DNA of 64,000 nt. Source: Pseudooceanicola sediminis. Lineage in GTDB: Bacteria > Pseudomonadota > Alphaproteobacteria > Rhodobacterales > Rhodobacteraceae. The stretch is taken from NCBI RefSeq assembly GCF_003575965.1, contig NZ_QWJJ01000004.1, positions 223,750 to 287,749 of the forward strand. The letters run 5' to 3'. Positions 3,028-60,251 of this stretch are shown in pieces. The notes beneath the pieces were generated by a model. The model was not told the DNA's origin, did no database searches, and saw only the letters and a program-made list of their open reading frames with translations. Positions within the stretch are counted from its first letter, which is position 1; every line of letters starts with the position of its first letter. A program made the translations under genes and the position numbers.

Positions 3028-3123
3028 CACCGTTCAGATACCGTTTCGAAACCGTCAGGATACCGACGTGGCTTTTCTTTGGTTTCAATGACTTGCACAG
3101 GTCATACCGCCCCGCACCGACGT
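3028..3123 (+). repeat. 96-bp phased ACCG element, copy 1
   Basis: ACCG occurs at 3029, 3040, 3051 and 3062 (exact 11-bp steps) and again at 3116 (+87). Between the fourth and fifth boxes lie TTTCAATG and ACTTGC, partly shared with the other copies. Same size and spacing as the copies at 24961-25056 and 60156-60251. It ends 82 bp before the DUF455 gene. Confidence 0.85.
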
Positions 3124-3205
3124 CCCCCACCGACGCGCGCCCTAGCCTCACTGGCACACAGCCTCTTCCCCCACCGGCATATGCCCCGAATGACAGAGAT
3201 CCCAA

Positions 3206-4045
3206 ATGGCAACCGTTCGCCCGCAGACCCTCACAGACATGGCGGTCGAGGTGCTCAGCACCGACGACGGCCGCGCCAAGACGGCGCTCTCGCATGCCCA
3301 CGCCGCGCGCTGGCGGGCCGCGCGCGACGCCGGAACGCCGATCCCCGTCGGCACCGCGTCCCCGCCGCTGCAACCCGCCCGCCCGGAGAAACCCGACCTG
3401 CGCGCGCCCCGTGACGTTCCGCGGCGCCGTCCCGGCACAGCGGCGGGGCGCATCGCCCTGTTGCACGCGGTCGCGCATATCGAGCTCAACGCCGTCGATC
3501 TGCACTGGGATATCATCGCCCGCTTCGGCCATGTCCCGATGCCACAGGGCTTCTATGACGACTGGGTGCGCGCGGCAGACGAGGAAAGCAAGCATTTCAA
3601 CCTGATGTGCGACTGCCTCGAGGCGCTCGGATCCCACTATGGCGCGCTGCCTGCCCACGCCGGGATGTGGCGCGCCGCCGAAGACACGGTCGACGATCTC
3701 TTCGGGCGCCTCGCCGTGGTGCCCATGGTTCTCGAGGCACGCGGCCTCGACGTCACCCCCGGGATGATCGAGATCTTCCGCAAGGCCGATATTACACAGG
3801 CGGTTCAGGCGCTTGAGACGATCTACGCCGAGGAGGTCGGCCATGTCGCCTACGGGTCGAAATGGTTTCACTACCTCTGTGGGCGGCACGAACATGACCC
3901 CAAGCCGATGTTCCACGCCCTCGTGCGCAAATATTTCCACGGTGTCCTCAAGCCCCCCTTCAACGCGGAAAAGCGCGCCGAGGCAGGCCTGCCGCCAGAT
4001 TTCTACTGGCCCCTCACCGAACAGGACGACAGCGCGACGGACTGA
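3206..4045 (+). CDS. DUF455 ferritin-like (MiaE-type di-iron) protein
   Basis: 279 residues matching the DUF455 family, a four-helix-bundle ferritin-like group related to the tRNA hydroxylase MiaE; the substrate of this branch is not established. Candidate di-iron ligands are visible: HIELNAVDLHWD near residues 93-104, EESKH near 128-132 and EEVGHVAYGSKWF near 210-222, all in the helix positions expected for carboxylate/His metal sites. Start at 3206 follows AGAG. The gene stands alone on the plus strand, 82 bp after the phased ACCG element, and no terminator was seen after it. Likely cytoplasmic; no signal peptide or membrane segment. Confidence 0.85.
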   Translation: MATVRPQTLTDMAVEVLSTDDGRAKTALSHAHAARWRAARDAGTPIPVGTASPPLQPARPEKPDLRAPRDVPRRRPGTAAGRIALLHAVAHIELNAVDLHWDIIARFGHVPMPQGFYDDWVRAADEESKHFNLMCDCLEALGSHYGALPAHAGMWRAAEDTVDDLFGRLAVVPMVLEARGLDVTPGMIEIFRKADITQAVQALETIYAEEVGHVAYGSKWFHYLCGRHEHDPKPMFHALVRKYFHGVLKPPFNAEKRAEAGLPPDFYWPLTEQDDSATD

Positions 4046-4458
4046 GCTCAGGATCGGCGTCGGCCGCGCAACGGCCCTCCGCGCAAGGTCCGGCCGGCAC
4101 GCATCCCACCGACCCGATCCCGCCCCTGCCTGTCTCCCGCCCCAGCCTGTCTCCTGCCCCAGCCTGTCCTCGATCCGCAAAGCCCTCGCGCCCTTGCGCA
4201 CGCCGGTCGCGCCACGCCACCCCCCAGGCACCGCACCCCCCGATCAAACTGATCGCGCCATTTGTTTCGCGCGCGAAAGTTTGGAAACATCGCTTATTTT
4301 CGGCGGCTATTCGCCAGATCCGCGAATTTTCGCCTCTCTGCGAAGGCGGTCCGGCCAAAAAGGTTGCCGCATGGCTGTCGCTTGGGTAACAGGTTTCAAG
4401 CGCCCCGGTGGGGACCATGAACGACGGGCGCAGGGGAACGACAAGGGACATTGACCTC
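4046..4458. other. Intergenic region upstream of the M23 peptidase gene
   Basis: About 410 bp without a credible gene. It contains a short tandem of GCCTGTCTCC-GCCCCA-type units around 4128-4170 and a perfect 14-bp palindrome TTTCGCGCGCGAAA at 4265-4278 in a locally AT-richer stretch that probably holds the promoter of the downstream operon. Confidence 0.5.
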
Positions 4459-5784
4459 GTGAGGACACGGCTAGCAATTCGCCTGCATTCAGTGCTTGAA
4501 CGCCACTTTCCGGAACGTCGCCTGTTTCTGCGATCCGACAGCGAAACCCGGTTCATCCGGCTCCGCCCCGCCACTCAACTCTTTGCCACCGCGGGCGGCG
4601 CGGCCATCGTCGCCTGGACGATCATCGCCACCGCCATCCTGCTGATGGACACCATCGGGTCGGGCAATTACCGCGAACAGGCCCTGCGCGACCAGCTCAC
4701 CTACCAGGTCAGCCTCAACGACATGGCCACGCAACGTGACCTGCGTGAATCCGAAGCCCTCGCCGCCCAGAACCGTTTCAACGCCGCCCTCGCGCGCGTC
4801 TCTGACATGCAGACCGAGCTGCTCAAGGCCGAGGCCCGCAACCGCGAGCTGGAAACCGGCATCGACGTGATCCAGACCACACTGCGCCGCACCATCCGCG
4901 AACGTGACGAAGTGCGGGCCGAACTGGCGGTTGCAACCGCCCCCGAGGCCAGCGGCGAACGCCCCGAACTGCCCGCCTACGCCGAAGATACGCTGGCCTT
5001 TCTGTCCAGTGCGCTCAGCGATACCGCGATGGAACGCGACAAGATCGACGCCGACGCGCAGGATGCCCTGCTGCAGGCGGATGAACTGTCACAGCGCATC
5101 GCCCTGATGCAGGATCAGAACGACGCGATCTTTCACCAGCTCGAAGACGCCATGGACGTCTCGGTCGAACCGCTGGACAAGATGTTCCGCGCTGCGGGTC
5201 TGAACACCGACAACCTGCTCAAGCAGGTGCGGCGTGGCTATTCCGGCCAGGGCGGCCCGCTGACCCCGATCTCCTTTTCCACGATGGGCGAAATGCCCTC
5301 GCCCGACGCCATGCGTGCCAATGCCATCCTTGCCAAGCTCGACACGCTCAACCTCTACCGTCTCGCCGCGTCCAAGGCGCCTTTCGCGATGCCGGTGCAC
5401 ACGTCCTTCCGCTATTCGTCGCCCTTCGGGGTGCGCCGCGACCCCAAGACCGGCGGACGTCGCAATCACTATGGCGTCGATATGGCTGCCTCCATCGGCA
5501 CCCCGCTCTACTCGACCGCGGATGGTGTCGTGATCCATGCCGGCTGGTCGACCGGCTATGGCAAGCTGGTAAAGATCAAGCACGATTTCGGGATCGAGAC
5601 CCGCTATGGTCACATGTCGCGCATTTCCGTCAAGGTGGGCCAAAGGGTCTCGCGCGGGGACCGCATCGGTGATATGGGATCAACCGGACGCTCGACTGGA
5701 TCGCACGTGCATTACGAGGTGCGAGTGAACGGCAAACCTGTAAACCCGATGACCTATATCAAGGCTGCAAAAGATGTTTTCTAA
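4459..5784 (+). CDS. Membrane-anchored M23 family peptidoglycan endopeptidase
   Basis: 441 residues from the GTG at 4459 (AAGGGA upstream; the family begins 'RTRLA..LH.VLERHFPERRLFLRSD'). ATG at 4408 would add 17 residues. One transmembrane segment (residues about 38-60, TAGGAAIVAWTIIATAILLM) is followed by a long coiled-coil stalk to about residue 230. The C-terminal LytM/M23 domain has all zinc/catalytic motifs: HYGVD, GHMSR and HVHYEV. It should cleave cross-links in periplasmic murein. Its last 11 bases overlap the bactofilin start, a pairing known from bactofilin-M23 modules (for example LmdC-BacA) that place wall remodelling at defined sites. Confidence 0.92.
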   Translation: MRTRLAIRLHSVLERHFPERRLFLRSDSETRFIRLRPATQLFATAGGAAIVAWTIIATAILLMDTIGSGNYREQALRDQLTYQVSLNDMATQRDLRESEALAAQNRFNAALARVSDMQTELLKAEARNRELETGIDVIQTTLRRTIRERDEVRAELAVATAPEASGERPELPAYAEDTLAFLSSALSDTAMERDKIDADAQDALLQADELSQRIALMQDQNDAIFHQLEDAMDVSVEPLDKMFRAAGLNTDNLLKQVRRGYSGQGGPLTPISFSTMGEMPSPDAMRANAILAKLDTLNLYRLAASKAPFAMPVHTSFRYSSPFGVRRDPKTGGRRNHYGVDMAASIGTPLYSTADGVVIHAGWSTGYGKLVKIKHDFGIETRYGHMSRISVKVGQRVSRGDRIGDMGSTGRSTGSHVHYEVRVNGKPVNPMTYIKAAKDVF

Positions 5785-20987: not shown

Positions 20988-21023
20988 GGCCCGGCCGCGA
21001 CATTTCCATGGCTCCGCAGACAG

Positions 21024-21053
21024 AACGGGCGCGCCAATGGCACGCCCGTTTTC
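21024..21053. terminator. Intrinsic terminator between convergent genes
   Basis: AACGGGCG pairs with CGCCCGTT around an inner GCC-AAT-GGC hairpin, followed by TTTTCGTTTTCC on the plus strand. Confidence 0.85.
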
Positions 21054-21086
21054 GTTTTCCCAGCGAACCGGCTTAGCCGGTCACGA

Positions 21087-21647
21087 TTACTCGGTCACAG
21101 TGACTTTCGTCATGACATCGGGCGCACCGATGACTGCGCCGTTGGCACCTTCGCCACGTTTGATCTGATCGACCACATCCATACCGTCAGTCACCTCTCC
21201 GACGACCGTATACTGGCCATTCAGGAAATCACCGGGGGCGAACATGATGAAGAACTGCGAATTCGCCGAATCCGGGCTTTGCGACCGGGCCATGCCGACC
21301 GTACCGCGCTGAAACGGCTTGTCCGAAAATTCAGCGGCGATGTCGGGCAGGTCGCTGCCCCCACGGCCTGCCATGCTCATGTCGCCGCCGGTCTTGCCGT
21401 ACTGAACGTCACCGGTTTGCGCCATGAAGCCATCGATCACGCGGTGAAACACCACGCCATCATAAGCGCCCTGTTCGGCAAGAGTGGTGATCTGGGCGAC
21501 ATGTTTGGGCGCGACATCATCGAACAAATCGACGTGGACGGTGCCGTTGGCGGCACCCTCGACCTCAATGTCCAGACCGGTCGCGCCCGCCTGCCCTGCC
21601 AATGCGGCAAAGCCTGCGGTCGCCAGTGCGGTTGCCAGCTTACGCAT
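21087..21647 (-). CDS. ppiA: Periplasmic peptidyl-prolyl cis-trans isomerase (cyclophilin)
   Basis: 186 residues starting with a signal peptide ([22 protein letters not shown]) followed by a cyclophilin domain. [17 protein letters not shown] and [24 protein letters not shown] carry the usual catalytic Arg/Phe and Gln/Phe residues. It should assist folding of exported proteins. The ATG at 21647 lies across the stop codon of the upstream cytoplasmic cyclophilin, with which it shares about half its residues. A TTG nine bases upstream is possible but not needed. Confidence 0.92.
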
Positions 21648-22146
21648 CTGCCGCAACCTTGACCGAAATCATCACGTCGGGCTGCGCAGGCGGCTCGCCA
21701 CGGGTGATGGCATCGACATGCTCCATGCCTTCGATGACACGGCCGTAGACGGTATACTGACCGTTCAGAAAGCTGTTGTCCTTGAAGTTGATGAAGAATT
21801 GCGAATTTGCCGAGTTCGGGTTCTGGCTGCGCGCCGCGCCCAGGGTGCCGCGCTCGTGCGGCAGCTTGGAGAATTCGGCCGGAAGGTCGGGCAGATCAGA
21901 CGACCCTGTACCGGCCATGCGCAGGTTGAAATCGCCGGTCGAATTGCCATGCGCAACGTCACCCGTCTGCGCCATGAACCCGTCGATCACGCGGTGGAAC
22001 ACCACCCCGTCATAAGAGCCGGCGCGCGCCAGCTCCTTCATCCGTTCGGCGTGCTTGGGGGCGACGTCCGCCAGCAGCTCGATCACGACGGTACCGCCCT
22101 TGAGCTCCATCAGGATGGTGTTTTCGGGATCCTTGATTTCGGCCAT
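21640..22146 (-). CDS. ppiB: Cytoplasmic peptidyl-prolyl cis-trans isomerase (cyclophilin)
   Basis: 168 residues without a signal peptide; a complete cyclophilin domain ([47 protein letters not shown]). Start 22146 has AAGGAGAG five bases upstream. It overlaps the following signal-peptide-bearing paralogue by eight bases, so a tandem duplication has produced one enzyme for each compartment. Divergent from pgk. Confidence 0.92.
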
Positions 22147-22272
22147 TTGTCTCTCCTTACTCATGTTTGCGCCAGCAATAGGGATATGCAGGGCAATTGC
22201 CAAGTAACCCGTGTTGACCGGAGGGCGCGAAGCCGCCAGAACTTGGGGCAACTGACACAAGGAGTGGGACGC

Positions 22273-23442
22273 ATGGGCTGGAAAACGCTGGACGACATGG
22301 AACTTGACGGCAAACGGGTGCTGACCCGCGTGGATATCAACGTTCCTGTCGAGGATGGCAAAGTCACCGACGCCACCCGGATCGAGCGAATCGTGCCGAG
22401 CGTGCAGTACATCCTGGAACAAGGCGGCAAGGTTCTGATGCTGGCGCACTTCGGCCGCCCGAAAGGCAAGGTCGTGCCCGAGATGAGCCTGCAAGTGGTG
22501 CTGCCCGCCCTGGAGCAGGCACTCGGTCAGAAGGTCGCCTTTGCCGAAGACCTGGAGGCCGCAGAGGGGCTGGAACAGGACATTATCCTGCTGGAAAACA
22601 TTCGCTTTTGGCCGGGCGAGGAAAAGAACGATGCAGAATTCGCCAAAAGGCTCGCCAGCCTGGGCGATGTCTACTGCAACGACGCGTTTTCCGCAGCTCA
22701 CCGTGCTCATGCCAGCACCGAGGCGCTGGCGCGCGAGCTGCCGGCCTGCGCCGGTCGGCTGATGCAGGCCGAACTGGAAGCCCTGGAAACCGCGCTCGGG
22801 GATCCGGTGCGACCCGTGATCGCGGTCGTCGGCGGGGCAAAGGTTTCGAGCAAGCTGGAGCTGCTGGGCAACCTTGTCTGCAAGGTCGACCGGCTGGTGA
22901 TCGGCGGCGGCATGGCCAACACGTTCCTGGCGGCGCAGGGTATCGACGTCGGGAAATCGCTGGCCGAACATGACATGACGGAAACGGCGAAGCAGATCCA
23001 GATGAAGGCGCTGGATGTCGGCTGCGAAATCATCCTGCCCGCCGATGTCGTCGTCGCCCGCGAGTTCAAGGCCAATGCCGAGAGCGAGACCGTTCCGGCG
23101 ACGCAATGTCCGGCGGATGCGATGATTCTGGACGCGGGGCCGGACAGTGTGCTGCGTCTGACGGCCGCGTTCGAAGCCTCCAAGACCTTGATCTGGAACG
23201 GTCCCCTGGGCGCCTTCGAGATCGAGCCGTTCAACGCCGCGACGGATGCGGCGGCACTGAAGGCAGCCGAGCTGACGAAGGCCGGCAAGCTGGTGTCGGT
23301 TGCAGGTGGCGGTGATACGGTGGCGGCGCTGAATGCCAGCGGCGCGGCCGAAAGCTTCAGCTATATCTCGACCGCAGGGGGCGCGTTCCTGGAGTGGATG
23401 GAGGGCAAGACCCTGCCCGGCGTTGCCGCTCTGGGGGGCTGA
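22273..23442 (+). CDS. pgk: Phosphoglycerate kinase
   Basis: 389 residues. The N-terminal [15 protein letters not shown], substrate-binding [12 protein letters not shown] (HFGRP), [23 protein letters not shown] and the C-terminal [12 protein letters not shown] all match PGK. It interconverts 1,3-bisphosphoglycerate and 3-phosphoglycerate with ATP. ATG 22273 is preceded by AAGGAG; longer in-frame starts run through the divergent promoter. The following gene is a class I aldolase, giving a short glycolytic/gluconeogenic block. Confidence 0.95.
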
Positions 23443-23580
23443 AACACGCAGCCATCGCGGGATCTGCCCTCCGTTAGCGCAACCTGAATTGCATGAAATT
23501 GCGCTGTCGCTTAGACATGGGGAAAAGGTCGCGGAGGCGCTGCGGCCTGCAACCAACCCCATTACTTCAGGCGATTGCAA

Positions 23581-24504
23581 ATGACGGAAACGACCCAGGC
23601 CGAATTGGTACGTGCCGACGCAGCCATGGCAGAACAGATGCGCAGCGGCGACGGTTTCATCGCGGCGCTTGACCAGAGCGGCGGCTCGACTCCAAAGGCG
23701 CTCAAGCTGTATGGCATTGAAGAGGATGCCTATTCCTCGGATGCCGAGATGTTTTCGCTGATGCACCAGATGCGGGCGCGGATCATCAAGAGCCCGGCCT
23801 TCAACGGTGAAAAGGTCATCGGCGCGATCCTGTTCGAGCGGACCATGGACGGCGACATCGACGGAGTTCCGACCGCGAAATACCTGTGGGAAGAAACCCA
23901 CGTCGTGCCTTTTCTGAAGGTCGACAAGGGGCTGGACGACGCGGCGGATGGTGTGAAGCTGATGAAACCGATGCCGGACCTGGATGCCCTGTGCCAGCGC
24001 GCGGTGTCCAAGGGAATCTTCGGGACCAAGATGCGCAGCGTCGTGGATGCGGCGAACCCGGTCGGCATCAAGAAGATCGTCGATCAGCAGTTCGAGGTCG
24101 GGATGCAGATCCTGAGCCATGGTCTGATGCCGATCCTGGAACCCGAAGTGACCATCACCATTGCCGACAAGGCCGAAGCCGAGGACCTGCTGCGCGACGA
24201 GATCCTGGCGCATCTGGACGCCCTGCCCGCCGGTGTCGAAGTGATGCTGAAGCTGTCAATCCCGGAAAAGGTGAACCAGTACAAGGCGTTAATCGACCAT
24301 CCCGCGGTGATGAAGGTGGTGGCGCTGTCGGGCGGATACGAGCGGCAGGATGCCAATGCGCGCCTGTCAAAACAGACGGGCATGATCGCCAGCTTCTCGC
24401 GTGCGCTGACCGAGGGGCTGTCCGCCCAGCAGGCGGATGCGGAGTTCGATGCGACCCTGGCCGAAACCATCGACGGCATTTACCAGGCATCTGTCGCGGG
24501 CTGA
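23581..24504 (+). CDS. fba: Fructose-bisphosphate aldolase, class I
   Basis: 307 residues of the bacterial class I aldolase family: [21 protein letters not shown] near the N-terminus, [24 protein letters not shown], and [10 protein letters not shown], where a lysine is placed for the Schiff base. It splits or forms fructose-1,6-bisphosphate without a metal. ATG 23581 is taken although the TTG two codons earlier is also open. Preceded by pgk (138 bp) and followed by an intrinsic terminator. Confidence 0.93.
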
Positions 24505-24527
24505 GAGCTGCGATCATCGTCGTGTGG

Positions 24528-24960: not shown

Positions 24961-25056
24961 ATGTCGGTATCCGCGGGCCAGACACCCGCAACCTATTGAT
25001 TCAGCTAAATTCCAACGTCGGTATCAGGGCGGTGTCCGAGCGGTATCTGAACGGTG
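24961..25056 (-). repeat. 96-bp phased ACCG element, copy 2
   Basis: Reverse orientation: CGGT at 25052, 25041, 25030 and 25019 (11-bp steps) and at 24965, i.e. 87 bp from the first box. It starts four bases after the stop codon of the FtsB-like gene. Shares CACCGTTCAGATACCG and GATACCGACGTT with the other copies. Confidence 0.85.
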
Positions 25057-25112
25057 TTTTCGCGCGCGAACCGCGTGGGTATCGGGATGGGCTGCGCTGT
25101 CAGGGCGGGGAA

Positions 25113-38997: not shown

Positions 38998-39019
38998 GTT
39001 CTCTACTCCTTGAAAATAT

Positions 39020-39430
39020 TCAGATATCCTGCACGCGAGCACGAAATTTCATATCGATGCGCCGCAGCGTGCCATTCCCGTCACGACGCGCCCGCGCCTT
39101 CAGAAAGTTCAGACTGACAACCACGCCGCGCGTCAGCGCAGGCAGCGGTTGGGCGAGTGAATCGCTGATCACCGCCGCGACCGACTTGGCCACCTGAAAC
39201 CCGTCTTCTTCGGTGATCACCGAGACAGTCAGATCATGCAGGGCCCCCGCCCCCGTCATGTCCGATCGGTCGCTAACCCGCTCCTCGCCCAGGCTGACGT
39301 AGGTGGCGGGCGGCGTCCCCGTCGGCGGTGCGTCAAAGATGTTGGCCCCCACAAGTGCCACCAGCGCAGCGTCGCTGCTCAGTTGCTGAAAGATTGCCGC
39401 TTGCAGCGCAGCTGATACCGCATAGCTCAT
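39020..39430 (-). CDS. GTA g8: tail terminator protein (DUF3168)
   Basis: 136 residues: SYAVSAALQAAIFQQLSSDAALVALVGANIFDAPP and TYVSLGEERVSDRSD match DUF3168. It caps the tail tube at the head-proximal end. The ATG at 39430 overlaps the g7 TGA (ATGA). Confidence 0.9.
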   Translation of the reverse strand: MSYAVSAALQAAIFQQLSSDAALVALVGANIFDAPPTGTPPATYVSLGEERVSDRSDMTGAGALHDLTVSVITEEDGFQVAKSVAAVISDSLAQPLPALTRGVVVSLNFLKARARRDGNGTLRRIDMKFRARVQDI

Positions 39431-39762
39431 GACGTGACCTCCTCGCGTGCGGTGCAAACCAGGAAGCGACCCTCGGCATCGCGTTCGGTCACCGCCTCGA
39501 TCTCGTAGATGCGGGCACCATCGCGAAATCTCTGCCCCGGCAGCGGCCTGCTGGGACGCCCGATCGCGACTCCCCTCACGGAGATTTTCAGCGTCTGGCG
39601 ATGCACCGTCAGCCCGCCCAGCCGGGTCGAACTGCTGGCCCCTGGCAGCACCTCGGCCCAGAGCGTTCCCAACTCGGACCACGTCGTGACATACCCGCCC
39701 GAGCCATTGGCGCTGCGCACTGAACGTTCCAGCACCAGCTGCCGGTTGAGACGCGGGATCAT
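39427..39762 (-). CDS. GTA g7: head-tail stopper/adaptor
   Basis: 111 residues of the SPP1 gp16/HK97 gp10 type head-tail joining family: RLNRQLVLERSVRSANGSGGYVTTWSELGTLWAEVLPG. Overlaps the g6 stop by four bases and the g8 start by four. Confidence 0.88.
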   Translation of the reverse strand: MIPRLNRQLVLERSVRSANGSGGYVTTWSELGTLWAEVLPGASSSTRLGGLTVHRQTLKISVRGVAIGRPSRPLPGQRFRDGARIYEIEAVTERDAEGRFLVCTAREEVTS

Positions 39763-40358
39763 GCTGAGCCTCGCATCGAAATCCTGATCGTGCGATACCG
39801 TTCGATCAGCGCCGTCACGCCAAAGGGCGTGCAGCCGCGCGACAACGACAGATCACTGCGGTATTCGTAGTAATGTGCTGCCATCAGCAACACCGCCTGC
39901 GCCAGATCGGGCGGCACGTCCCGCCATTCTTCGGCGCTGCCCGCATACATCCGCACTACGGCATTGCTGCCTTCGGGGATTGTCGGAAGCGATCCGGAGA
40001 CGTGACGCATCACTGGCGTCTGGCTGTCCGCAACGATCTGGAACTCGCCCACGTCATAGGGGGTTGCCGTGCCGTCCGGGGCGACGATGTTCACCTCGTG
40101 GATCAGGCGGACCGGGGCCAGGGGCAACGGCTGGCTGCCCGGGCTCTGCCATTCGCTGACCGACCACTGGAAATCGCGCAGGTACAATGCCTGGCCCGTG
40201 CGCCCCTCGATGGCCGATATCGCGGCCCGCAGATATCCCTCCAGCACCTGATCCTGCACCGCGTCCTCTGCGAAACCGCTACCAAGGTGCAAATGCGCCT
40301 TGAAGTGGTCGATCGGCAGATCGCTCGGGTGCGTCTGGTATTCTTCGATCAATATCAT
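39759..40358 (-). CDS. GTA g6: head-tail connector/adaptor
   Basis: 199 residues: EYLR-type connector with LEGYLRAAISAIEGRTGQALYLRDFQWSVSEW and the C-terminal helix AVLLMAAHYYEYRSD typical of gp6-like connectors that bind under the portal. Separated from the capsid gene by 169 bp holding two strong hairpins. Confidence 0.88.
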   Translation of the reverse strand: MILIEEYQTHPSDLPIDHFKAHLHLGSGFAEDAVQDQVLEGYLRAAISAIEGRTGQALYLRDFQWSVSEWQSPGSQPLPLAPVRLIHEVNIVAPDGTATPYDVGEFQIVADSQTPVMRHVSGSLPTIPEGSNAVVRMYAGSAEEWRDVPPDLAQAVLLMAAHYYEYRSDLSLSRGCTPFGVTALIERYRTIRISMRGSA

Positions 40359-40417
40359 TTGTTACTCCGACGATCCGGGCCGCTTGCATCGACCCCTTGA
40401 CGCTCCGGGACACCCCT

Positions 40418-40512
40418 CCCGGCGCGTGTCTCCCATCGTTGCTCTGACGGAGGGAGCAGCTGGACAACGCATTCAGAAGACACGCGCCCGGCAGAGCCGG
40501 AATTCCGGCTCT
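40418..40512 (-). other. Two stable hairpins between capsid gene g5 and g6
   Basis: A perfect 20-bp palindrome AGAGCCGGAATTCCGGCTCT at 40493-40512, right after the g5 stop, plus an outer pair GCGCGTGTCT (around 40422-40432) with AGACACGCGC (around 40478-40488). There is no T-tract. Likely to stabilise the 3' end of the capsid message or reduce read-through, so that capsid is made in excess over connector and tail. Confidence 0.65.
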
Positions 40513-40527
40513 ACCGACCCGCCGCGA

Positions 40528-41715
40528 TTAGGCTGCGGCGAATTTCAGCAGCTTGATCGCCCCGAAATCGCTGACATCACCGCCGACGCGCTTGGTGGCA
40601 TAGAACAGAACGTGCGGCTTGGCGCTGAAGGGATCGCGCAGCACCCGCAGATCCGGCCGTTCGGCGACCGTGTAGCCGGCGTGGAAATCGCCAAAGGCAA
40701 TCGCATAGGCATCGGAGTCGATGTCGGGCATGTCCTCGGCAACCAGCACGGGATAGCCCATAAGGCGTGCCGGTTCGCCCGCCGCCATGCTGTCGGACCA
40801 AAGGAAACGCCCATCGGCATCCTTCAGCTTGCGAACCGCGCCGGCCGTCTTCGAATTCATCACGAAAGTGCCATTGGCGCGGTAACGTGCGCCCAGCGCA
40901 TAGACCAGATCGACGATGGCATCCGCCGGATCGTTCAGGTCGAAATCGCCATCGGCCCCGGTCGCGATATAGCCGAGGTTGTCCCAGGACCAGCTGGCAT
41001 CCGCGATCTTGGGATGGCTCAGAAACCCCTTGGGCTTGTCTGCCCCATCGCCGCTGATGAACGCCGCGGCTTCGGCACGCGAAAACTTGTCCGCGATACG
41101 TTCTGCCAGCCACGCCTCGATATCGAAGGCGCTGTCGTCCAGCAGCCTCTGCGATGCTTTCGGCAGCGCCGACAGCTCGAACAACGGAATGGCGATGCGA
41201 TCCACCGTCGGGGTCGAGGTTTCGGAGACCGAGCTTTCGTCGTTCCAGCCCGCCCCGATGTCGGTGGTGTCGACCAGCACGTCATAGGACGTGGCGTTGA
41301 CGTTCACCACGTTGGCAATCTGGCGGATCGACGACGATGCCATCAGCACCGAACGGATCGTCTCGGATGTCATCGGATCCACCAGGTATCCGCCGTCGCC
41401 GTTGACAGCAGACGACATCGCCTTGCCCTCCAACTCAAGGCCGCGCAGGCCGTCGTCATCGCCGGAGCGCAGATAGACGTTAAACGCCTTCTGATGCGGT
41501 GCTTCGATTTCGGCGGACCGCGCCAACGCCGGGCGCGCTGCGGTCAGGGATTTGCGATCAAGCATGGTCAGTCGGCTTTCCTGTTGTTGAATCTTTGCGT
41601 GAATATCAGACTGGAAGTCCTTGAACTCCCGCATGAAATCCGTCACGGCGGACTTTACCTCAGCCACCGGAGACACAAGCTCTCCGTGCCGAGAATTCAC
41701 CTCGGTCATACCCAT
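40528..41715 (-). CDS. GTA g5: HK97-type major capsid protein
   Basis: 395 residues. The N-terminal delta region (about 10-75) is a predicted coiled coil (VSPVAEVKSAVTDFMREFKDFQSDIHAKIQQQESRL) that the prohead protease should remove. The HK97 fold follows (AFNVYLRSGDDDGLRGLELEGKAMSSAVNGDGGYLVDP...GFLSHPKIADASWSW). Start 41715 has GAGGAG nine bases upstream; the frame is open further but overlaps g4. Confidence 0.94.
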   Translation of the reverse strand: MGMTEVNSRHGELVSPVAEVKSAVTDFMREFKDFQSDIHAKIQQQESRLTMLDRKSLTAARPALARSAEIEAPHQKAFNVYLRSGDDDGLRGLELEGKAMSSAVNGDGGYLVDPMTSETIRSVLMASSSIRQIANVVNVNATSYDVLVDTTDIGAGWNDESSVSETSTPTVDRIAIPLFELSALPKASQRLLDDSAFDIEAWLAERIADKFSRAEAAAFISGDGADKPKGFLSHPKIADASWSWDNLGYIATGADGDFDLNDPADAIVDLVYALGARYRANGTFVMNSKTAGAVRKLKDADGRFLWSDSMAAGEPARLMGYPVLVAEDMPDIDSDAYAIAFGDFHAGYTVAERPDLRVLRDPFSAKPHVLFYATKRVGGDVSDFGAIKLLKFAAA

Positions 41716-41749
41716 CGTCTTCTCCTCGGATGGAAAGTGAGAGAGCGCC

Positions 41750-42310
41750 CTAGCGGCCGCCCAATTCGGCCCCTGCGACCCGAAAGGCCGCCGCCAGTTC
41801 GCGCAGGCCATCGTCGAACGGGGTGTCCCCCTTGCCCGCGACCCGCGCACTGGGCAGCATCGGAAAGGTCACCAGCGACACCTCCCAAAGCTCCAGTTCC
41901 GTCAGAAGCCTGCGGCCTCCAGTATCCTTGGTGGCGCGCTTGGTGCGATAGCCGATGGACAGCCCGTCAATCGCCCCGGCCCCGATCAGCGCCGCCGCCT
42001 CGCGCCCTTTTGCAACGCTCTCCAGCAGGCGCCCCTTGACCCAGAGCCCGGTGCCATCCTCGTGGATGTCGTCCCAGACGCCGATGGGCTGGGCGGGGTC
42101 GTGCTGCCACAGCATCTTGACCCGCCGCCCCTCCGCCAGGAGCGCACCCAGCGATGCCGCATAGGCCCCTTGTGCCACCACGTCGCCGCCCTGATCGCAG
42201 GCGCCGAACCGCGAGGCATAGCCCTCGATCGACAGCCCGTCCTCCTGCACGCTCAACCCCTCGTCGAACTGGCAGAACTTGCGCTCAAGCCCGCTTGTCA
42301 TTTCCTGCAT
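41750..42310 (-). CDS. GTA g4: prohead protease (HK97 family)
   Basis: 186 residues of peptidase family U35: DGLSIEGYASRFGACDQGGDVVAQGAYAASL, catalytic His in MLWQHDP and catalytic Ser in GLSIGYRT. It processes the capsid N-terminus. Start 42310 has GAGGAG upstream; ATG 42301 is a second choice. Confidence 0.9.
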   Translation of the reverse strand: MQEMTSGLERKFCQFDEGLSVQEDGLSIEGYASRFGACDQGGDVVAQGAYAASLGALLAEGRRVKMLWQHDPAQPIGVWDDIHEDGTGLWVKGRLLESVAKGREAAALIGAGAIDGLSIGYRTKRATKDTGGRRLLTELELWEVSLVTFPMLPSARVAGKGDTPFDDGLRELAAAFRVAGAELGGR

Positions 42311-42321
42311 CTTGTCACTCC

Positions 42322-42561
42322 TCACGGCAAACGTTCGATGATTGACTGAAAGGCCTGCGCCAGGATCACACCGACCACCCCGTAAACGGTCAGCCACAGC
42401 CTTCGCTCCAGCCGTTCGATGATGATCTCCAGCCGGTCGATGCGCCCGTTCAGCCCGTCGATCTGCAATTTCGACACCCGCTCGTGCGCTTCCAGCTTCA
42501 GCGAGGGCGCGCATTCAAAGCTCTCGTAGCTGATGCGCGCAACCTCGCGTGGCTCACCCAT
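42322..42561 (-). CDS. GTA g3.5: small coiled-coil/membrane protein
   Basis: 79 residues: a coiled coil (LQIDGLNGRIDRLEIIIERLERR, about 31-53) followed by one hydrophobic segment (LWLTVYGVVGVILAQAF). A gene of this type sits at the same place in RcGTA; its role is not clear. Overlaps the g3 3' end by eight bases. Confidence 0.8.
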   Translation of the reverse strand: MGEPREVARISYESFECAPSLKLEAHERVSKLQIDGLNGRIDRLEIIIERLERRLWLTVYGVVGVILAQAFQSIIERLP

Positions 42562-43750
42562 GATCGGCGTCCAGCGGCGGCAGCCCCAGCATCGCGCGCT
42601 TCTCTCCGGGGGTCAGGAAATCCGCTTCTCCGATCCTCTGCCACAGCGAGTCACGCTCGACCGACAGCGCCGGCACACGGTCCAGGTCGGGGCTCAGCGT
42701 CAGATCCTCGCCGGTAAACCGCTCCAGCCATTCCCCCACGCTGGCCACCACACGCGTGGCCAGCGGCAGAACCGTCAGGCGAAAGAACGCCCGGTGCGCT
42801 TCCTGGTAATTGGCGTAGGTTGCATCTCCCTGGATCCCCAGCAGCATGGGCGGCACCCCGAAGGCCAACGCAATCTCGCGTGCGGCGGCTTCCTTGGTCT
42901 TTTGAAATTCCATGTCGGAGGGGCTGAAGCCCATGGGCTTCCAGTCCAGCCCACCCTCCAGCAACATCGGTCGGCCCGCATTGCGCGCGCCCTGATGGTG
43001 CATCTCCATCTCCATCACCAACCGGTCGTACTGCTCGGTGGTCATGGAGCCTTCGCCCTCGTACCCTTTATAGACGATGGCCCCCGATGGGCGCGCGGCA
43101 TTGTCCAGCAGCGCCTTGGACCAGCGCGACGCGCTGTTGTGCACGTCCAGTGCCTGCGCGGCGGCCTGCATCGGCGACAGGCCATAGTGGTCGTCCTGAG
43201 GATGAAAGCTCTTCATGTGGCAGATCGCGGGCCGGTCCCCGGTTACATCGAAGCGATGCTTGCTGCCGTTGACGTTGTAATCGAACGCCACTGGCCAGCC
43301 ATCCGCGCCCGGCACCAGGCTCATGCGGTCGCTGCGCAGCACATGCAGCTCGACAGGGGCCCCTTCCTCGGCGGCGACCGCCTCGAGATAGGCGTTCCCG
43401 GTCAGCAGCAGGTGGCCATAGAGCGCCTCGAACATCTCTGCCCGGCCCTGTGCCTGATTGGGTTGTTTCAGCAGCGCCAGCAGCGGGTGTTCTTCATAGC
43501 GTTGCCGACGGTCCTGCAAGGTCAGCGGCAGGGCGGCAGCGGCCTCGGCGATCATCTTGACTGCACGAAACCCCACCGGATTGCCACTGAAACCGGACCG
43601 GGTCAGCGACACCGCATCACGCGGCGACCAGGCCACCCGACCCGAGCTTTGATAGGCCACCAGCTTGCCGGTTGCCGAAGCCTTCTGCTCCGGCGCGGCA
43701 ACGGTTGCCTGACCGGCACCGTCGCGGCGGAAATAGTCGATGACCCCCAT
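42554..43750 (-). CDS. GTA g3: portal protein (HK97 family)
   Basis: 398 residues: VAWSPRDAVSLTRSGFSGNPVGFRAVKMIAEAAAALPLTL, LKQPNQAQGRAEMFEALYGHLLLTGNAYLE, GLSPMQAAAQALDVHNSASRWSKALL and EIALAFGVPPMLLGIQGDATYANYQEA are portal-family blocks. Forms the dodecameric DNA channel. Start 43750 has AAGGAGA eight bases upstream. Preceded by a non-coding gap with a terminator and palindromes. Confidence 0.94.
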   Translation of the reverse strand: MGVIDYFRRDGAGQATVAAPEQKASATGKLVAYQSSGRVAWSPRDAVSLTRSGFSGNPVGFRAVKMIAEAAAALPLTLQDRRQRYEEHPLLALLKQPNQAQGRAEMFEALYGHLLLTGNAYLEAVAAEEGAPVELHVLRSDRMSLVPGADGWPVAFDYNVNGSKHRFDVTGDRPAICHMKSFHPQDDHYGLSPMQAAAQALDVHNSASRWSKALLDNAARPSGAIVYKGYEGEGSMTTEQYDRLVMEMEMHHQGARNAGRPMLLEGGLDWKPMGFSPSDMEFQKTKEAAAREIALAFGVPPMLLGIQGDATYANYQEAHRAFFRLTVLPLATRVVASVGEWLERFTGEDLTLSPDLDRVPALSVERDSLWQRIGEADFLTPGEKRAMLGLPPLDADHG

Positions 43751-43801
43751 GCGCGTCTCCTTGAATACCTGTTGCGTCTCACCCGTCCGGCGATCCGTGA
43801 G

Positions 43802-43853
43802 AGACAATTTGTCTTGAATTCCTTAAGAACTGGCTGGCCCACCGCGCGGTGGG
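43802..43853. promoter_or_regulatory. Palindrome cluster upstream of GTA g3
   Basis: Two perfect palindromes lie between the g2 terminator and g3: AGACAA-T-TTGTCT at 43801-43813 and an 18-bp GCCCACCGCGCGGTGGGC at 43836-43853, with GAATTCCTTAAG between. Could be regulator sites for an internal g3 promoter. Confidence 0.45.
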
Positions 43854-43892
43854 CGTTTCCCGATATTTCAATGTGTTACGCAGACAAAATGC

Positions 43893-43921
43893 AAAAAAGG
43901 GCCCCGGTTTCCCGAGGCCCT
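43893..43921 (-). terminator. Strong intrinsic terminator between GTA g2 and g3
   Basis: On the minus strand AGGGCCTCGG pairs with CCGGGGCCCT (one T-G pair) around a GAAA tetraloop and is followed by TTTTT. It begins 26 bases after the g2 stop. Confidence 0.85.
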
Positions 43922-43947
43922 GTCAAACTTTGCAAATCCGTCTGCCG

Positions 43948-45354
43948 TCAGATGCTGCGCACCGTGGGCGTCCATTTCGGCTGCGCGGCGATCATCAGCT
44001 CGTGCAGCGCCCAGACCAGCGCATCCAGACGGTCGGGGCTGCCGCGCCCCTCCCAGCCGCGCATGGTCATCTGGCTCAGCTGATCTTCCAGCGCCCCCAG
44101 ACCGCGCACATGAAACACCCGGCCCTGTTCGTACAGCGCCGCCACAGGCTCGGCCCGGGCCGACTTGCCCCGTGCGGCGCGTACCTTCTTGACCGGGGCC
44201 AGCGGGTCGACCTGCCGGATCACGGCCTCTACCAGGTCGCCCCCCTGGTTCACCTCGGCCACGATCTTGTCGGCCCCGTGGCGCTGCATCGCGGCAATCG
44301 CAGCTTCGGCCCATTGCACCGGACTGGCGGCCGACACGCTGGCATCCTCCAGCACATAGGCCCGCCAGGTCTGCGGTGGCCCACTGGAAACGAGGCCCGC
44401 CACAACGATGCCGCATTCGTCCGATCCCGCGTGGCCCGTAACTGGCGGATCGACCGCCACGACGATACGATCCAGCGCGGGCACCCCGTCAACCTGCGCC
44501 CCGACAATCATCGCCTCGCTCCACAGCGCCCCCTCGGCGTCGGCCAGCATCACGCCGTCCAGCTCCTGTCGCCCCAACCAGGTGCCCGCATAGCGCGCCC
44601 GCACCTCCTCCAGAAACCCATCCGCCAGGTTGGCGCGATTGGCCTCGGTCGGCGCCTGGGTGACAACGCTGGACGGGCTGTTCAGCAATTGCTTGAGCAC
44701 CCCCACGTTGCGCGGGGTCGTGGTGACGCAGACCCGTGGGTCCTCGCCCAGCCGCAGGGCAAACTGCAACATGTCCCAGGTCGCCTGCGCCTTCTTCCAC
44801 TTGGCCAGCTCGTCCAGCCAGGCTCCGTCGAACTGCGGCCCGCGCAGCGCCTCGGGCTCGCTGGCGGAAAACGCCTGCGCCTCGGCGCCGTTGGGCCAGA
44901 TCAGCTTGCGTTCGCTGGCCTTCCAGACCGGGCGGCGGTCGGGGGGCGAACAGGCCATGATGCCGCTCTCGCCAAAGATCATCACGTCGCGTGCCTGATC
45001 GAAGGTCTCGGCCACCAGCGCGACGCGGCGACATCTGCCGGTATCCAGCGGCCCCGCGCCCTCGACCTGCGCGCGCACCCATTCGGCCCCGGCACGGCTC
45101 TTGCCCGCGCCGCGCCCCCCCAGGATCAGCCATGTCCGCCAGTCGCCTTCGGGCGGCAACTGATGCTGCAATGCCCAGAAATCGAACAAAAAAGGGAGAG
45201 CACGAAGCTCTCCCTCCTCCAGGTCATCCAGAAACCACCTCTGCGTATCCGCATCTGCGCAGGCGATCCAGGCGGCACCCGATCGAAGCCCTTGCGGCGG
45301 CGAGGTCGATGTCCCCACCTCCTGTACCTCCGCCTCTTGTGGACGATACTCCAT
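43948..45354 (-). CDS. GTA g2: terminase large subunit (DNA-packaging ATPase/nuclease)
   Basis: 468 residues from ATG 45354. ATPase motifs are Walker A LGGRGAGKSRAGAEW and Walker B GAWLDELAKW; the nuclease half has VAVDPPVTGHAGSDECGI and later Asp clusters. It packages random host DNA into GTA heads. The start is uncertain: 45354 overlaps g1 by 131 bp, and GTG 45318 (GGAGG upstream) overlaps by 95 bp. The family-conserved part begins only near 45210 (ALPFLFDFWALQHQLPPEGDWRTW). Followed by a strong terminator. Confidence 0.9.
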   Translation of the reverse strand: MEYRPQEAEVQEVGTSTSPPQGLRSGAAWIACADADTQRWFLDDLEEGELRALPFLFDFWALQHQLPPEGDWRTWLILGGRGAGKSRAGAEWVRAQVEGAGPLDTGRCRRVALVAETFDQARDVMIFGESGIMACSPPDRRPVWKASERKLIWPNGAEAQAFSASEPEALRGPQFDGAWLDELAKWKKAQATWDMLQFALRLGEDPRVCVTTTPRNVGVLKQLLNSPSSVVTQAPTEANRANLADGFLEEVRARYAGTWLGRQELDGVMLADAEGALWSEAMIVGAQVDGVPALDRIVVAVDPPVTGHAGSDECGIVVAGLVSSGPPQTWRAYVLEDASVSAASPVQWAEAAIAAMQRHGADKIVAEVNQGGDLVEAVIRQVDPLAPVKKVRAARGKSARAEPVAALYEQGRVFHVRGLGALEDQLSQMTMRGWEGRGSPDRLDALVWALHELMIAAQPKWTPTVRSI

Positions 45355-45583
45355 TCCGCTTTTTACCTTCATCGAGCTTGGCCTCCATCTCCAAAGCAAA
45401 CCGGACCCAGAACCGGATTTCGCCGCACATCTTGGTCGTCTCCTTGACCGCCTCGACCTCTCCGGCGCGCACCCTGTCCTGCAGCGCCTTGAGGTCTTCG
45501 GTGATGCCCAGCACCTGTCGTTCGATCGTTTCGATCGTCGTACGCAAACGGGAGTCTTCTCTCTCGGACGTGTTTATTGTCAT
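45224..45583 (-). CDS. GTA g1: terminase small subunit
   Basis: 119 residues. Helical with coiled-coil pattern (LRTTIETIERQVLGITEDLKALQDRVRAGEVEAVKETTKMCGEIRFWVRFALEMEAKL), matching the RcGTA g1 small terminase, which unlike phage homologues shows little sequence specificity. GAGG lies 13 bases upstream of the ATG inside a small inverted repeat (GTTGCTC 45585-45591 / GAGCAAC 45619-45625). First gene of the GTA cluster. Confidence 0.85.
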   Translation of the reverse strand: MTINTSEREDSRLRTTIETIERQVLGITEDLKALQDRVRAGEVEAVKETTKMCGEIRFWVRFALEMEAKLDEGKKRNGVSSTRGGGTGGGDIDLAAARASIGCRLDRLRRCGYAEVVSG

Positions 45584-46949: not shown

Positions 46950-48209
46950 TCAGCGGACCTTTCCGAAAACCAGGCTGGCATTGGTGCCGCCAAAGCCAAA
47001 GGAGTTGGACAGCGCGATGTCGATCTTGCGCTCGACCTTGGCATTGGGGGCCAGGTCGATCGCGGTCTCGACCGCCGGGTTGTCCAGGTTGATGGTGGGC
47101 GGCGCGACCTGGTCGCGGATCGCCAGGATCGAAAAGATCGCCTCGATCGCACCGGCGGCCCCCAGCAGGTGCCCGGTGGCGGATTTGGTCGACGACATGG
47201 TGACGGCACTGGCATGATCGCCCATCAGACGCTCGACAGCGCCCAGCTCGATCGTGTCGGCCATGGTCGAGGTGCCATGCGCATTGACGTAATCCACGTC
47301 GGCCGGCGTGATCCCGGCGCGGTTCAGCGCCATTTCCATGCTGCGCCGCGCGCCATCGCCATCCTCGGACGGGGCGGTAATGTGATAGGCGTCGCCCGAC
47401 AGGCCATAGCCCAGGTATTCACCATAGATCTTGGCGCCGCGCGCCACGGCGTGCTCGTATTCCTCCAGCACCACGATGCCCGCGCCCTCGCCCATGACGA
47501 AACCGTCGCGGTCCGCATCATAGGGGCGGCTTGCCTTGGTGGGATCATCGCCATATTTCGTCGACAGCGCCTTGCACGCGTTGAAACCCGCGATGCCGAT
47601 CTTGCAGATCGCCGCCTCTGCGCCGCCGGCAACCATCACGTCCGCATCGCCCCACTGGATCAGGCGCGCCGCATCGCCAATGGCATGGGCGCCCGTGGAA
47701 CAGGCGGTCACGACCGAATGGTTCGGCCCGCGAAAGCCGTACTTGATGCTGACCTGACCCGAGATCAGGTTGATCAGCGCGCCGGGCACAAAGAACGGGC
47801 TGACGCGGCGCGGGCCCTTTTCTTCCATCATCACGGCGGTATTCGCGATCGAGTTCAGACCACCGATGCCCGACCCGATCAACACGCCGGTGCGCGCCTG
47901 CGCCTCGGGGTCGGTGGGCTTCCAGCCACTGTCCTCGACCGCCTGCTGGGCCGCCGCGACACCGAACAGGATAAAGGTATCGACCTTGCGCTGTTCCTTC
48001 GGCTCCATCCAGTCGTCGGCATTGAAGGTGCCATCGCTGCCATCGCCGCGCGGCACTTCGCAGGCATAGGTGGTGGTCAGACCTTCGGGATCGAACTGAC
48101 CGATCCGGTTCGCACCGGACTGGCCGGCAATCAGGCGGCTCCAACTTTCCTCGACCCCGCAGGCCAGAGGAGTGACAAGCCCAAGCCCGGTGACAACGAC
48201 ACGACGCAT
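46950..48209 (-). CDS. fabF: Beta-ketoacyl-ACP synthase II
   Basis: 419 residues with the thiolase-fold catalytic triad: Cys170 in VVTACSTGAHA, His near 310 in NAHGTSTMADT and His near 348 in ATGHLLGAAGA, and the terminal NSFGFGGTNASLVF. It elongates fatty acyl-ACP with malonyl-ACP. Upstream lies acpP, separated by an intrinsic terminator; mltG follows immediately. Confidence 0.95.
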   Translation of the reverse strand: MRRVVVTGLGLVTPLACGVEESWSRLIAGQSGANRIGQFDPEGLTTTYACEVPRGDGSDGTFNADDWMEPKEQRKVDTFILFGVAAAQQAVEDSGWKPTDPEAQARTGVLIGSGIGGLNSIANTAVMMEEKGPRRVSPFFVPGALINLISGQVSIKYGFRGPNHSVVTACSTGAHAIGDAARLIQWGDADVMVAGGAEAAICKIGIAGFNACKALSTKYGDDPTKASRPYDADRDGFVMGEGAGIVVLEEYEHAVARGAKIYGEYLGYGLSGDAYHITAPSEDGDGARRSMEMALNRAGITPADVDYVNAHGTSTMADTIELGAVERLMGDHASAVTMSSTKSATGHLLGAAGAIEAIFSILAIRDQVAPPTINLDNPAVETAIDLAPNAKVERKIDIALSNSFGFGGTNASLVFGKVR

Positions 48210-51197: not shown

Positions 51198-51862
51198 GGT
51201 TCACTCCCTTGTGTCATGTTGCGCCGGGGGATAGCCGCCGCCGCGCCATATGGCAATGCACTCGTGCCCGCGAAGGCGGTGCGCAGAGCTGCCCAGCAAA
51301 CTTGTGCCCCGAACTCGGCCCCAGACTCGGCCCCCACACTCTGGCCCGAACTTGGCCCCCCAATGTGCCCCCCGATGTGCCCCCCAACGCTCCCCCGCAA
51401 TGGACCCGCAGATTTACCCCACCTCGGGCCGTAGCAATCCGCCCACAGCCGCCCTCGCCTCCTCACTCCTGGCAAGCCGTCACAGTCGTAAAGTCGTCAA
51501 AGTTGGCAAGCCGTCGCGGAAAAGTCGGGGCGCAGGGCCGCACGGACAGCCGGTCCATGCGCTGTATCTTGCAACCGCCGCTGCCCTCTGGCCAATCAAC
51601 AGCATGAAGATCCCGTCAGGCCGCCTCGCCAATGCGCCCCCGGGGGACGGCTCCGGACACCCCCGTTTTCACGCGCTGCGCGACGCAGGCCGGTATTCTC
51701 GCGAAATGCCGCCCGCTTTCCAAAGCTAAGCCTCTTTCAAAAACCCGAGCCTCTTTCAAAACCCCAGCCTCCATCAAAACCCGGCCTCGCTCACGACGCC
51801 AGCCTCCCCGGCACTGTTGGGCGCTGTAACGCGGTCTGTCTCAATAACGCCTCAATACCGCC
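51198..51862. other. Low-complexity intergenic region upstream of fabD
   Basis: 665 bp with no credible gene. It holds short imperfect tandem repeats: C-rich units like AATGTGCCCCCC around 51345-51400, and units like GCCTCTTTCAAAACCC around 51730-51780. The fabD promoter should be near 51198-51260. Confidence 0.5.
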
Positions 51863-51874
51863 TCAATACCGGGG
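51841..51874 (+). repeat. 11-bp tandem array (CCTCAATACCG units)
   Basis: TCAATAACG, CTCAATACCG and CTCAATACCG at exact 11-bp steps (A(A/C)CG at 51846, 51857, 51868), overlapping the end of the adjacent minus-strand gene. Same period and ACCG core as the 96-bp elements but without their fifth box in place. Confidence 0.5.
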
Positions 51875-59415: not shown

Positions 59416-59534
59416 CGCCGCCACCTGCCCGACGCGCGCCGCTGACAGCCCCGCCCACAGATCGTGGCCCGCCCCCTGATCGTCGCTGCCCGCATCGCAT
59501 CACGCGGCCCCGGCCTCGTCTCGTATTCCACCCG

Positions 59535-60119
59535 CCCTCACGCGCAACACCCCCGCGCCGCCCGCCTTGCTGCACGGAGTCCCCGCGCCGCGCCCAAGCT
59601 GCACCCCGATCCGCTCGCCGCGCGTCATAGGTTGAGCATGTTCACACCCCGGCTGCGCCGCGCCGACGTCCGGGGATACCCGTCCGCAGGCGTCATCCTC
59701 CGGCCCCGGCTCTTGCCTCATTCCTCCAGCCCTCACGCGCAACACCCCCGCGCCGCCCGCCTTGCTGCACGGAGTCCCCGCGCCGCGCCCGAGCTGCGCC
59801 CTGATCCACTCGCCGCGCGTCATCGGTTGAGCATGTTCACGCCCCGGCTGTGCCGCGCCTGCGTCCAGGGGTACCCGACCGCAGGCGTCATCGCCCGGCC
59901 GCGGCTCTTGCCTCATTCCTCCAGCCCTCACGCGCGACTCCCTCGCGCCGCCCGCCTTGCTCCCCGGCGTCCCCGAGCACCGCCCATGCTGCGCCCTGAT
60001 CCGCTCGCCGCGCATCATCGGTTGAGCATGTTCGCGCCCCGGCTGCGCCGCGCCGACGTCCGGGGATACCCGTCCGCAGGCGTCATCGCCCGGCCCCCTG
60101 ACCCGGCGCACGCCACCTC
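59535..60119. repeat. 195-bp tandem direct repeat, three copies
   Basis: Copies start at 59535, 59730 and 59925 with CCCTCACGCGC; a partial earlier unit is visible from about 59500. Each contains CGCGCCGCCCGCCTTGCT and GGTTGAGCATGTTC. Copies 1 and 2 differ at roughly one base in twelve, copy 3 more. The length is a multiple of three, which is why both strands stay open. Changes are not limited to third positions. Confidence 0.85.
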
Positions 60120-60155
60120 GCGTCACCATCCTCACCTTGGCCGGGGTGGTTTTGG

Positions 60156-60251
60156 CACCGTTCAGTTACCGTACAGATACCGTCAAGATACCGACGTTCG
60201 AATCCGGCGTTTTCAAAGACTTGCGAGATTTCACCCGGCCCGTACCGACAT
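60156..60251 (+). repeat. 96-bp phased ACCG element, copy 3
   Basis: ACCG at 60157, 60168, 60179 and 60190 (11-bp steps) and at 60244 (+87). Shares CACCGTTCAG, GATACCGACGTT, TTTCAAAGACTTGC and TACCGACAT with the other copies. It lies between the 195-bp repeats and the tig terminator. Confidence 0.85.

Follow-up and report, generated by a model that had tools for sequence, protein, structure and literature searches.

Dispersed four-unit arrays in Pseudooceanicola sediminis and a candidate BrnA-like protein that may read them

A stretch of 64,000 nucleotides from Pseudooceanicola sediminis (contig NZ_QWJJ01000004.1, positions 223,750 to 287,749 of the forward strand, in its whole length referred to as the window) carries three intergenic arrays of ACCG boxes spaced 11 bp apart. 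We find that these arrays belong to a family of sites present in several members of one mostly marine family of bacteria, in numbers from a few to more than 100 per genome, and that their occurrence is associated with the gene for a solitary BrnA-like protein of the ribbon-helix-helix (RHH) class. Judging from sequence comparison, we consider it probable that an RHH protein regulates its own gene and coats dispersed iteron sites, with chromosome organisation or segregation as its most likely role; the chromosome-organising function taken by itself we regard as evenly balanced. The genome in which the arrays were first seen (the own genome, labelled G000) comprises 4.44 Mb in 54 contigs, and other genomes are labelled G followed by a number.

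According to the proposed mechanism, a site would be made up of four iterons, each 11 bp or one helical turn long, and of A/T tracts that come after them in near phase. The BrnA-like protein, encoded elsewhere in the same genome, would bind the array as RHH dimers, one following another head to tail along the four units and all on the same DNA face, and the phased A/T tracts would favour bending or wrapping of about seven turns. The copy in the promoter of the reader gene would probably serve its autoregulation, while dispersed copies would serve chromosome organisation or segregation in a centromere-like or nucleoid-bridging manner. The DNA specificity of the reader may shift, with the array cores following across the genome. 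A sequence-only reading of the window had already proposed a protein-DNA array on one helix face rather than a recent transposon, and this proposal gains support from a candidate protein, its phylogenetic profile, an array at its own promoter, its fold class and the inheritance of sites in place. The features of the window are as follows.

3022..3095, + strand: array A, four ACCG units at 3029-3065 and an A/T-tract extension, in the gap between two tandem genes
3116..3119, + strand: fifth box (ACCG) in copy A; most other arrays lack it
24989..25062, - strand: array B, four units from 25055 down to 25019 and an extension, flanked by predicted genes, just past the stop of one (24657-24956) and upstream of another (25703-26719)
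24965..24968, - strand: fifth box (ACCG) in copy B; most other arrays lack it
60150..60223, + strand: array C, four units at 60157-60193 and an extension, in a gap between convergent genes, downstream of tig (60339-61670, - strand)
60244..60247, + strand: fifth box (ACCG) in copy C; most other arrays lack it
51835..51871, + strand: possible degenerate fourth array, weak, with two exact boxes and one near box (3 mismatches)

The gene names tig, ftsB, pdhA, rpoA, rplQ, lpdA, leuD, arfB, gatB and gltD were read from translations and are not database annotations. In all three window copies (3028-3123, + strand; 24961-25056, - strand; 60156-60251, + strand) ACCG stands at offsets 0, 11, 22, 33 and 87, and CACCGTTCAG and GATACCGACGT are common to the three, as the sequence-only reading had described. 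A search for four boxes at exact spacing, allowing up to 3 mismatches, gave 15 matches in the window against 1.48 (sd 1.42) in shuffled sequence, and none of 100 shuffles reached 15. The expectation of many matches across the genome held as well: with up to 2 mismatches the own genome gave 222 matches, against 30 with a reversed-pattern control, and a stricter three-box pattern gave 114 against 0. These genome-wide searches used 11-bp spacing only, and overlapping matches inside one array were counted more than once. Rfam covariance models at gathering score gave no match in the window.

A fixed 96-bp element with five boxes, also part of the initial description, does not extend beyond the window; it was dropped, since ACCG at +87 is rare among aligned arrays (7 of 49 in the own genome, 2 of 59 in the nearest relative, G170). 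Alignment of these 49 and 59 arrays gives a conserved block from about -7 to +66, about 73 bp, in which the consensus contains direct repeats. Four 11-bp units are followed by A/T tracts at about +44-47, +54-57 and +64-65, in near-helical phase. Counting only arrays that keep three or more boxes in register, 47 of 59 own arrays have four units (9 have three and 3 have five), as do 54 of 59 from G170. The arrays of G145, a genome with another core, have four units in 17 of 20 cases and repeat the A/T tracts at the same offsets. Hairpins or palindromes were rejected because single-strand folding of five arrays was no better than that of shuffles (z 0.41, 1.09, 1.93, -1.13 and 0.54).

Two own arrays are amplified locally in tandem (locus L092, G000:C27:15100-18377, at 3040-3228, and L020 at 1406-1537) with repeats of about 80 and 92 bp, and their G170 counterparts read as single arrays. 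Contig C27 ends in the amplified array repeat and contig C6 starts with an array. GTTAAC-like motifs occur about 30 bp before the first box, and in several of the arrays also near +63, at own loci L002, L005, L010, L019, L023, L026 and L093; these could be a putative second binding site. Palindromes of the GGGGGCAGCGCCCCC type near arrays A and B (window 2800-2850 and 25135-25185), also found in the G170 gap, form a separate repeat family.

Comparison of the genes beside arrays across genomes yielded four groups common to the own genome or G170 and another genus: two of paralogues (ABC-transporter ATPases and MiaB-like proteins), gatB, and a protein about 120 aa long. The gene for the last of these adjoins an array in the own genome, G170 and G125, and likewise in G153 and G119. 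All three proteins compared match PF14384 (BrnA_antitoxin, RHH class) at 44.5-49.9 bits with a cut-off of 26.1, and we consider it very likely, on this and the comparisons below, that this BrnA-like protein reads the arrays. A PDB profile search with the candidate reader gave no matches, and an NCBIfam TlmB match, seen in only 1 of 5 members, was set aside as chance. Among 23 genus members the reader gene was found only in G000, G170, G153 and G167, which are four of the five genomes with at least 20 array hits, and it was seen in none of the other 18 (co-occurrence Fisher p 0.0006, with G168 counted as absent). The weak fifth hit, in G168, reads as ordinary BrnA.

With a profile built from five of these proteins, 60 of 149 family genomes had matches at E ≤1e-3, ordinary BrnA included; in the class set, at E ≤1e-8, scores above 38 bits came only from members of the family. 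A search of 72,556 plasmid records gave one weak match, covering 40% of the query. The 26 immediate neighbour genes of the reader at 14 loci were read by eye and none is ParM-like; among the 20 of them also scanned with Pfam none is BrnT, ParM or ParA, and no adjoining BrnT toxin gene was seen among the other 6, as judged by eye. The 11-bp geometry had also suggested sites of an OmpR/PhoB- or CtrA-type response regulator, CtrA half-sites (TTAA-N7-TTAA) having the same spacing. This lead was dropped because the co-occurring, array-linked gene encodes a BrnA-like RHH protein and not a winged-helix one, winged-helix families not having been searched, and we regard this explanation as extremely improbable.

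The association between the reader gene and the arrays extends to its promoter. Four units repeating with period 11 and sharing at least 4 identical columns were found upstream of the gene at 26 of 33 homologue loci and in 0 of 224 control windows, while other periods from 8 to 14 were found at no more than 5 of the 33. These loci are four from the genus and the other 29 of 30 family loci among the matches listed. The promoter array lies about 100-180 bp upstream of the reader gene, or about 310 in the own genome, and two homologues beyond the 33, in G421 and G192, also have one. The short locus L286 still had no promoter array when tested at the correct place. The G192 homologue (L358) has one internal stop, and its genome has just 6 ACCG array hits, which would fit a system in decay.

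Cores of the promoter arrays vary by lineage and include CGGT/ACCG, GTCGGC, GTCGG, GTATGG (equal to CCATAC), ATGCACA (equal to TGTGCAT), GTTCATGC and CCGTCTT, among others. From two of the promoter cores we predicted dispersed arrays with the same core in other genera, and these were found. CCATAC hits number 172 in G067, 85 in G145, 38 in G105, 33 in G049, 14 in G116 and 2 in G003, with 1 in the comparison genome G000 and 0 in G150, G120 and G077; the reversed control was not clean (4-22 hits in G049, G067, G145 and G105) because the reversed core partly matches the arrays. TGTGCAT hits number 87 in G032, 36 in G084, 10 in G047 and 8 in G130, with 1 in the comparison genome G145, 0 in G000, G150 and G067, and 0 throughout with the reversed control. 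Dispersal was searched with the cores ACCG, CCATAC and TGTGCAT; other promoter cores are those of, for example, G142, G064, G066, G035, G094, G077, G120 and G001. The reader gene is divergent from an ACP-synthase-III-like gene in G105 (L267), G032 (L269), G145 (L272), G084 (L275) and G049 (L276), and three of these five loci are also near carB; the arrangement does not occur in G067 (L268). This common neighbour in five genera with CCATAC or TGTGCAT cores suggests that the reader gene was inherited in place there.

Within the genus, ACCG arrays were detected in 7 of 23 members; the family set gave 5 genomes out of 149 and the class set 3 out of 385, the last three all in the family. The array hits per genome in the genus were 114 in G000, 97 in G153, 89 in G170, 52 in G167 and 20 in G152. 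Among 80 named tig loci, an array was present only in Pseudooceanicola sp. HF7 (the own record is not in that collection). At least 20 of about 50 sampled own loci, array A among them, have a G170 array between the same two genes, which is a lower bound because the samples were array-centred and G170 was sampled in part. All three window arrays have G170 counterparts: that of array A is orthologous and partly degenerate, with no array in the short gap of G150, that of array B is orthologous with the same flanking genes, and the place of array C is also occupied in G170 and G167. Genomes with no more than one or two ACCG arrays give the same picture. G168 has an array between the same two genes as the own genome and G170, one of the two arrays of G080 follows gatB as in G170, and the array of G165 lies beside gltD as in the own genome. 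The sites are thus inherited in place, which argues against recent copying.

These observations bear on the possibility that the arrays are mobile or REP-like repeats which insert with a strand bias into safe gaps, the protein being a by-stander or a self-limiter. The intergenic placement stated in the sequence-only reading was borne out in 50 of 51 own arrays sampled (called with a home-made gene finder, two of the 51 lying at one amplified locus), and together with the high copy number, the patchy distribution among species, the strand bias described below and the local tandem amplification at two own loci it would be expected of such repeats. However, the arrays are not palindromic by the folding test, and no terminal repeat or transposase was noticed at the elements read, where no dedicated search was made. 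Sites are common to species and even genera with the same flanks and orientation yet different cores, and the cores are homogenised in place and match the array in the promoter of the reader gene. We therefore regard mobile repeats as very unlikely.

The clearest cases of retained sites with changed cores come from comparisons between genera. Arrays lie in the same orientation in the YpdP-arfB gap (ACCG in the own genome, G170 and G168; CCATAC in G145 and G049), in the lpdA leader (ACCG in G055; CCATAC in G145, G003 and G049) and in the rpoA-rplQ gap (ACCG in G125; CCATAC in G145 and G116). Two of these three places, which match in both neighbours, have an array in at least three genera; leuD and a chorismate-mutase-like gene are among further matches with different cores in which one neighbour is shared. 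By a rough estimate, not a simulation, chance matches of both neighbours among 20 G145 arrays would be well under one. Between the own genome and G170, identity of the variable 5-mers of the units was 0.515 in orthologous pairs vs 0.475 in other between-species pairs (P 0.08), and 0.595 and 0.673 within the two species. The adjoining 25 bp of the extension, on the other hand, keeps locus identity (0.513 vs 0.379, permutation P 0.0006). This comparison used 11 of 14 pairs, with two amplified own loci and one three-box array dropped and one own array shifted by a unit; box identity of 1.0 was set by the search pattern and proves nothing.

Homogenisation of units within a species could come either from selection by a changing protein or from gene conversion between copies, in which case the core change would owe nothing to the reader. 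Gene conversion is at odds with the restriction of homogenisation to the units, which leaves out the adjoining 25 bp, and with the covariation of the core with a residue in the beta strand of the reader. One position of this strand is Tyr in 6 of 6 genomes with an ACCG core and in 0 of 13 others (G142, G064, G066, G035, G116, G094, G105, G067, G032, G084, G011, G001 and G120), a probability of 1/27132 calculated by hand with relatedness not corrected. The 13 have a strand that could be read and a promoter array whose shuffle P is ≤0.015; 7 array loci with an unreadable strand were left out. From RHH structures, this beta strand presumably contacts DNA, and we take the Tyr position as a lead to a specificity residue. 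Gene conversion as the cause of the core change appears decidedly unlikely to us. Specificity seems to have changed repeatedly in the family, with cores changed genome-wide and at least some sites staying in place. The full extension of this, a family-wide addressing system in which a solitary RHH protein uses up to more than 100 oriented arrays to organise or segregate the chromosome and whose code was rewritten many times with the sites kept, we put forward tentatively, as somewhat short of probable.

Placement and orientation of the arrays are informative about function. Among 108 arrays of the own genome and G170, 29 lie in convergent gaps, where about 10 are expected, and 13 in divergent gaps, where about 23-28 are expected (chi-square p 9e-11 by length and 9e-9 by count; gene calls were home-made, and shared and amplified loci were counted more than once). 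Of 156 arrays from 12 genomes, 142 are on whichever strand is locally C-rich, as measured over 1.4 kb of flanking sequence and with arrays too near a locus end dropped. Larger sets are those of the own genome (49/54), G170 (56/59) and G145 (17/20, or 19/20 with wider flanks); smaller ones are G105, G067, G084 and G032 (3/3 each), G049 (3/4), and G003, G130 and G047 (1/1 each). For the own genome and G170 this strand bias is independent of coding direction (regression intercepts -0.074 and -0.073). Replication is a natural cause of such strand skew. As to orientation relative to the replication origin, raised in the sequence-only reading, arrays follow local strand composition, but a simple split into two replichores is not seen in the single-contig genome G170.

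Along the window itself (21000-37000), GC skew rises around array B, reaching about +0.1 at 22-30 kb after values of about -0.1; it then stays close to zero as far as 37 kb, beyond which it is negative again. Array B was considered as the cause of this pocket and dropped, the colinear, array-free G150 and G149 showing weaker skew and gene-by-gene codon effects.

The main rival explanation is a global transcription regulator, with an RHH protein binding four-repeat operators and controlling the adjoining genes. An array at the promoter of the reader itself would be expected of such a regulator, as would the direction of arrays in tandem gaps of G170 (25 along the genes and 10 opposite) and G145 (9 and 4). 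The excess of arrays in convergent gaps and their shortage in divergent ones are difficult to reconcile with it, as are the tandem arrays of the own genome (14 along the genes, 17 opposite) and an orientation that tracks strand composition and not coding direction. On balance we consider a global regulator unlikely.

Several results nevertheless weigh against a chromosome-organising RHH protein. Some of them fit gene regulation better: among 20 sampled G145 arrays only 1 is convergent, with 4 divergent, 13 tandem (9 of them along the gene direction) and 2 called intragenic, and several arrays of other genera lie shortly upstream of start codons, in the same direction. In G170 no two-replichore polarity was seen (best bipartition P 0.36), and evenness of array spacing did not clearly exceed chance (P 0.09). 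Runs of arrays on one strand reach significance in G145 (P 0.0017) but not in the own genome (0.067) or G170 (0.28), and arrays of G116 lie on the C-rich strand in only 2 of 4 cases. Arrays occur in G152 (20 hits), G055 (6) and G080 (2), where the reader gene was not found; these genomes may hold remnants. At 7 of the 33 homologue loci there is no clear promoter array, and TGTGCAT is nearly absent from the test genomes G023 (1) and G011 (0), whose promoter cores differ somewhat.

Two further observations concern other parts of the window. A gene transfer agent cluster of the RcGTA kind occupies 31491-45372 (- strand); in six proteins scanned, domains were GTA_TIM/Rcc01698-like, capsid, prohead protease, portal, terminase and baseplate-hub. 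An ARAGORN call of tRNA-Ile at 48075-48168 (- strand) overlaps a predicted gene at 46950-48209, and one of the two calls is probably wrong.

A literature search, mostly without subscription papers, turned up no account of such arrays, nor of a solitary BrnA that has dispersed sites. If the proposed account is true, it would amount to an undescribed chromosome-wide protein-DNA system in a large bacterial family, arising from a lone antitoxin-type protein. It would also offer a rare natural experiment on joint change in a protein and some 50-100 unlinked sites, along with a naturally evolved set of orthogonal RHH codes for DNA binding, each with the protein that reads it. What solitary BrnA-like proteins do would become open to direct test.

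Known systems share individual features with the one proposed here. MatP/matS, SlmA/SBS and Noc/NBS each combine one protein with tens of dispersed chromosomal sites, as here, but their sites are single palindromes and their proteins belong to other families. The operator of LexA (SOS boxes) differs between bacterial groups along with the regulator, which resembles the core changes described above; LexA, however, governs a promoter regulon for transcription and has no four-unit arrays. REP sequences also occur in many intergenic, species-specific copies, but they are palindromic and linked to a transposase (RAYT). The BrnT/BrnA toxin-antitoxin system is related through the PF14384 domain, found above cut-off in the candidate reader, and differs in that here no BrnT match was found by Pfam in 20 neighbours and the arrays are dispersed.

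The closest likenesses are to segregation proteins of the RHH class. ParR of plasmid R1 is described (PMC9426499) as needing at least two 11-bp repeats, and it is stated there that ParR proteins are typically RHH, bind direct repeats and wrap the repeat DNA. The candidate system is similar to ParR/parC of R1 and its relatives in combining an RHH protein with direct repeats that measure about one turn and lie near its own operon. It differs in that parC is a plasmid centromere working with ParM, whereas the reader is solitary, is scarcely found on plasmids and would have many sites. SegB of Sulfolobales is described (PMC12284271) as an RHH protein whose sites lie close to its own gene and also at scattered places on the chromosome; it compacts and loops DNA and is implicated in segregation. 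Its sites are imperfect palindromes, mostly within genes and clustered near segAB, and SegA is the partner. An RHH protein with sites, here putative, both at its own gene and dispersed is common to the two systems, while here the sites are direct-repeat arrays, mostly intergenic, and no ParA-type match was found in 20 neighbour genes. The resemblance to ParR and SegB is an analogy of working, not membership. Neither a single reader with dispersed chromosomal sites nor an operator that drifts along with its regulator is new in kind; what appears unusual is the combination, in which four-iteron sites, an antitoxin-type reader and genome-wide recoding at retained sites would come together.

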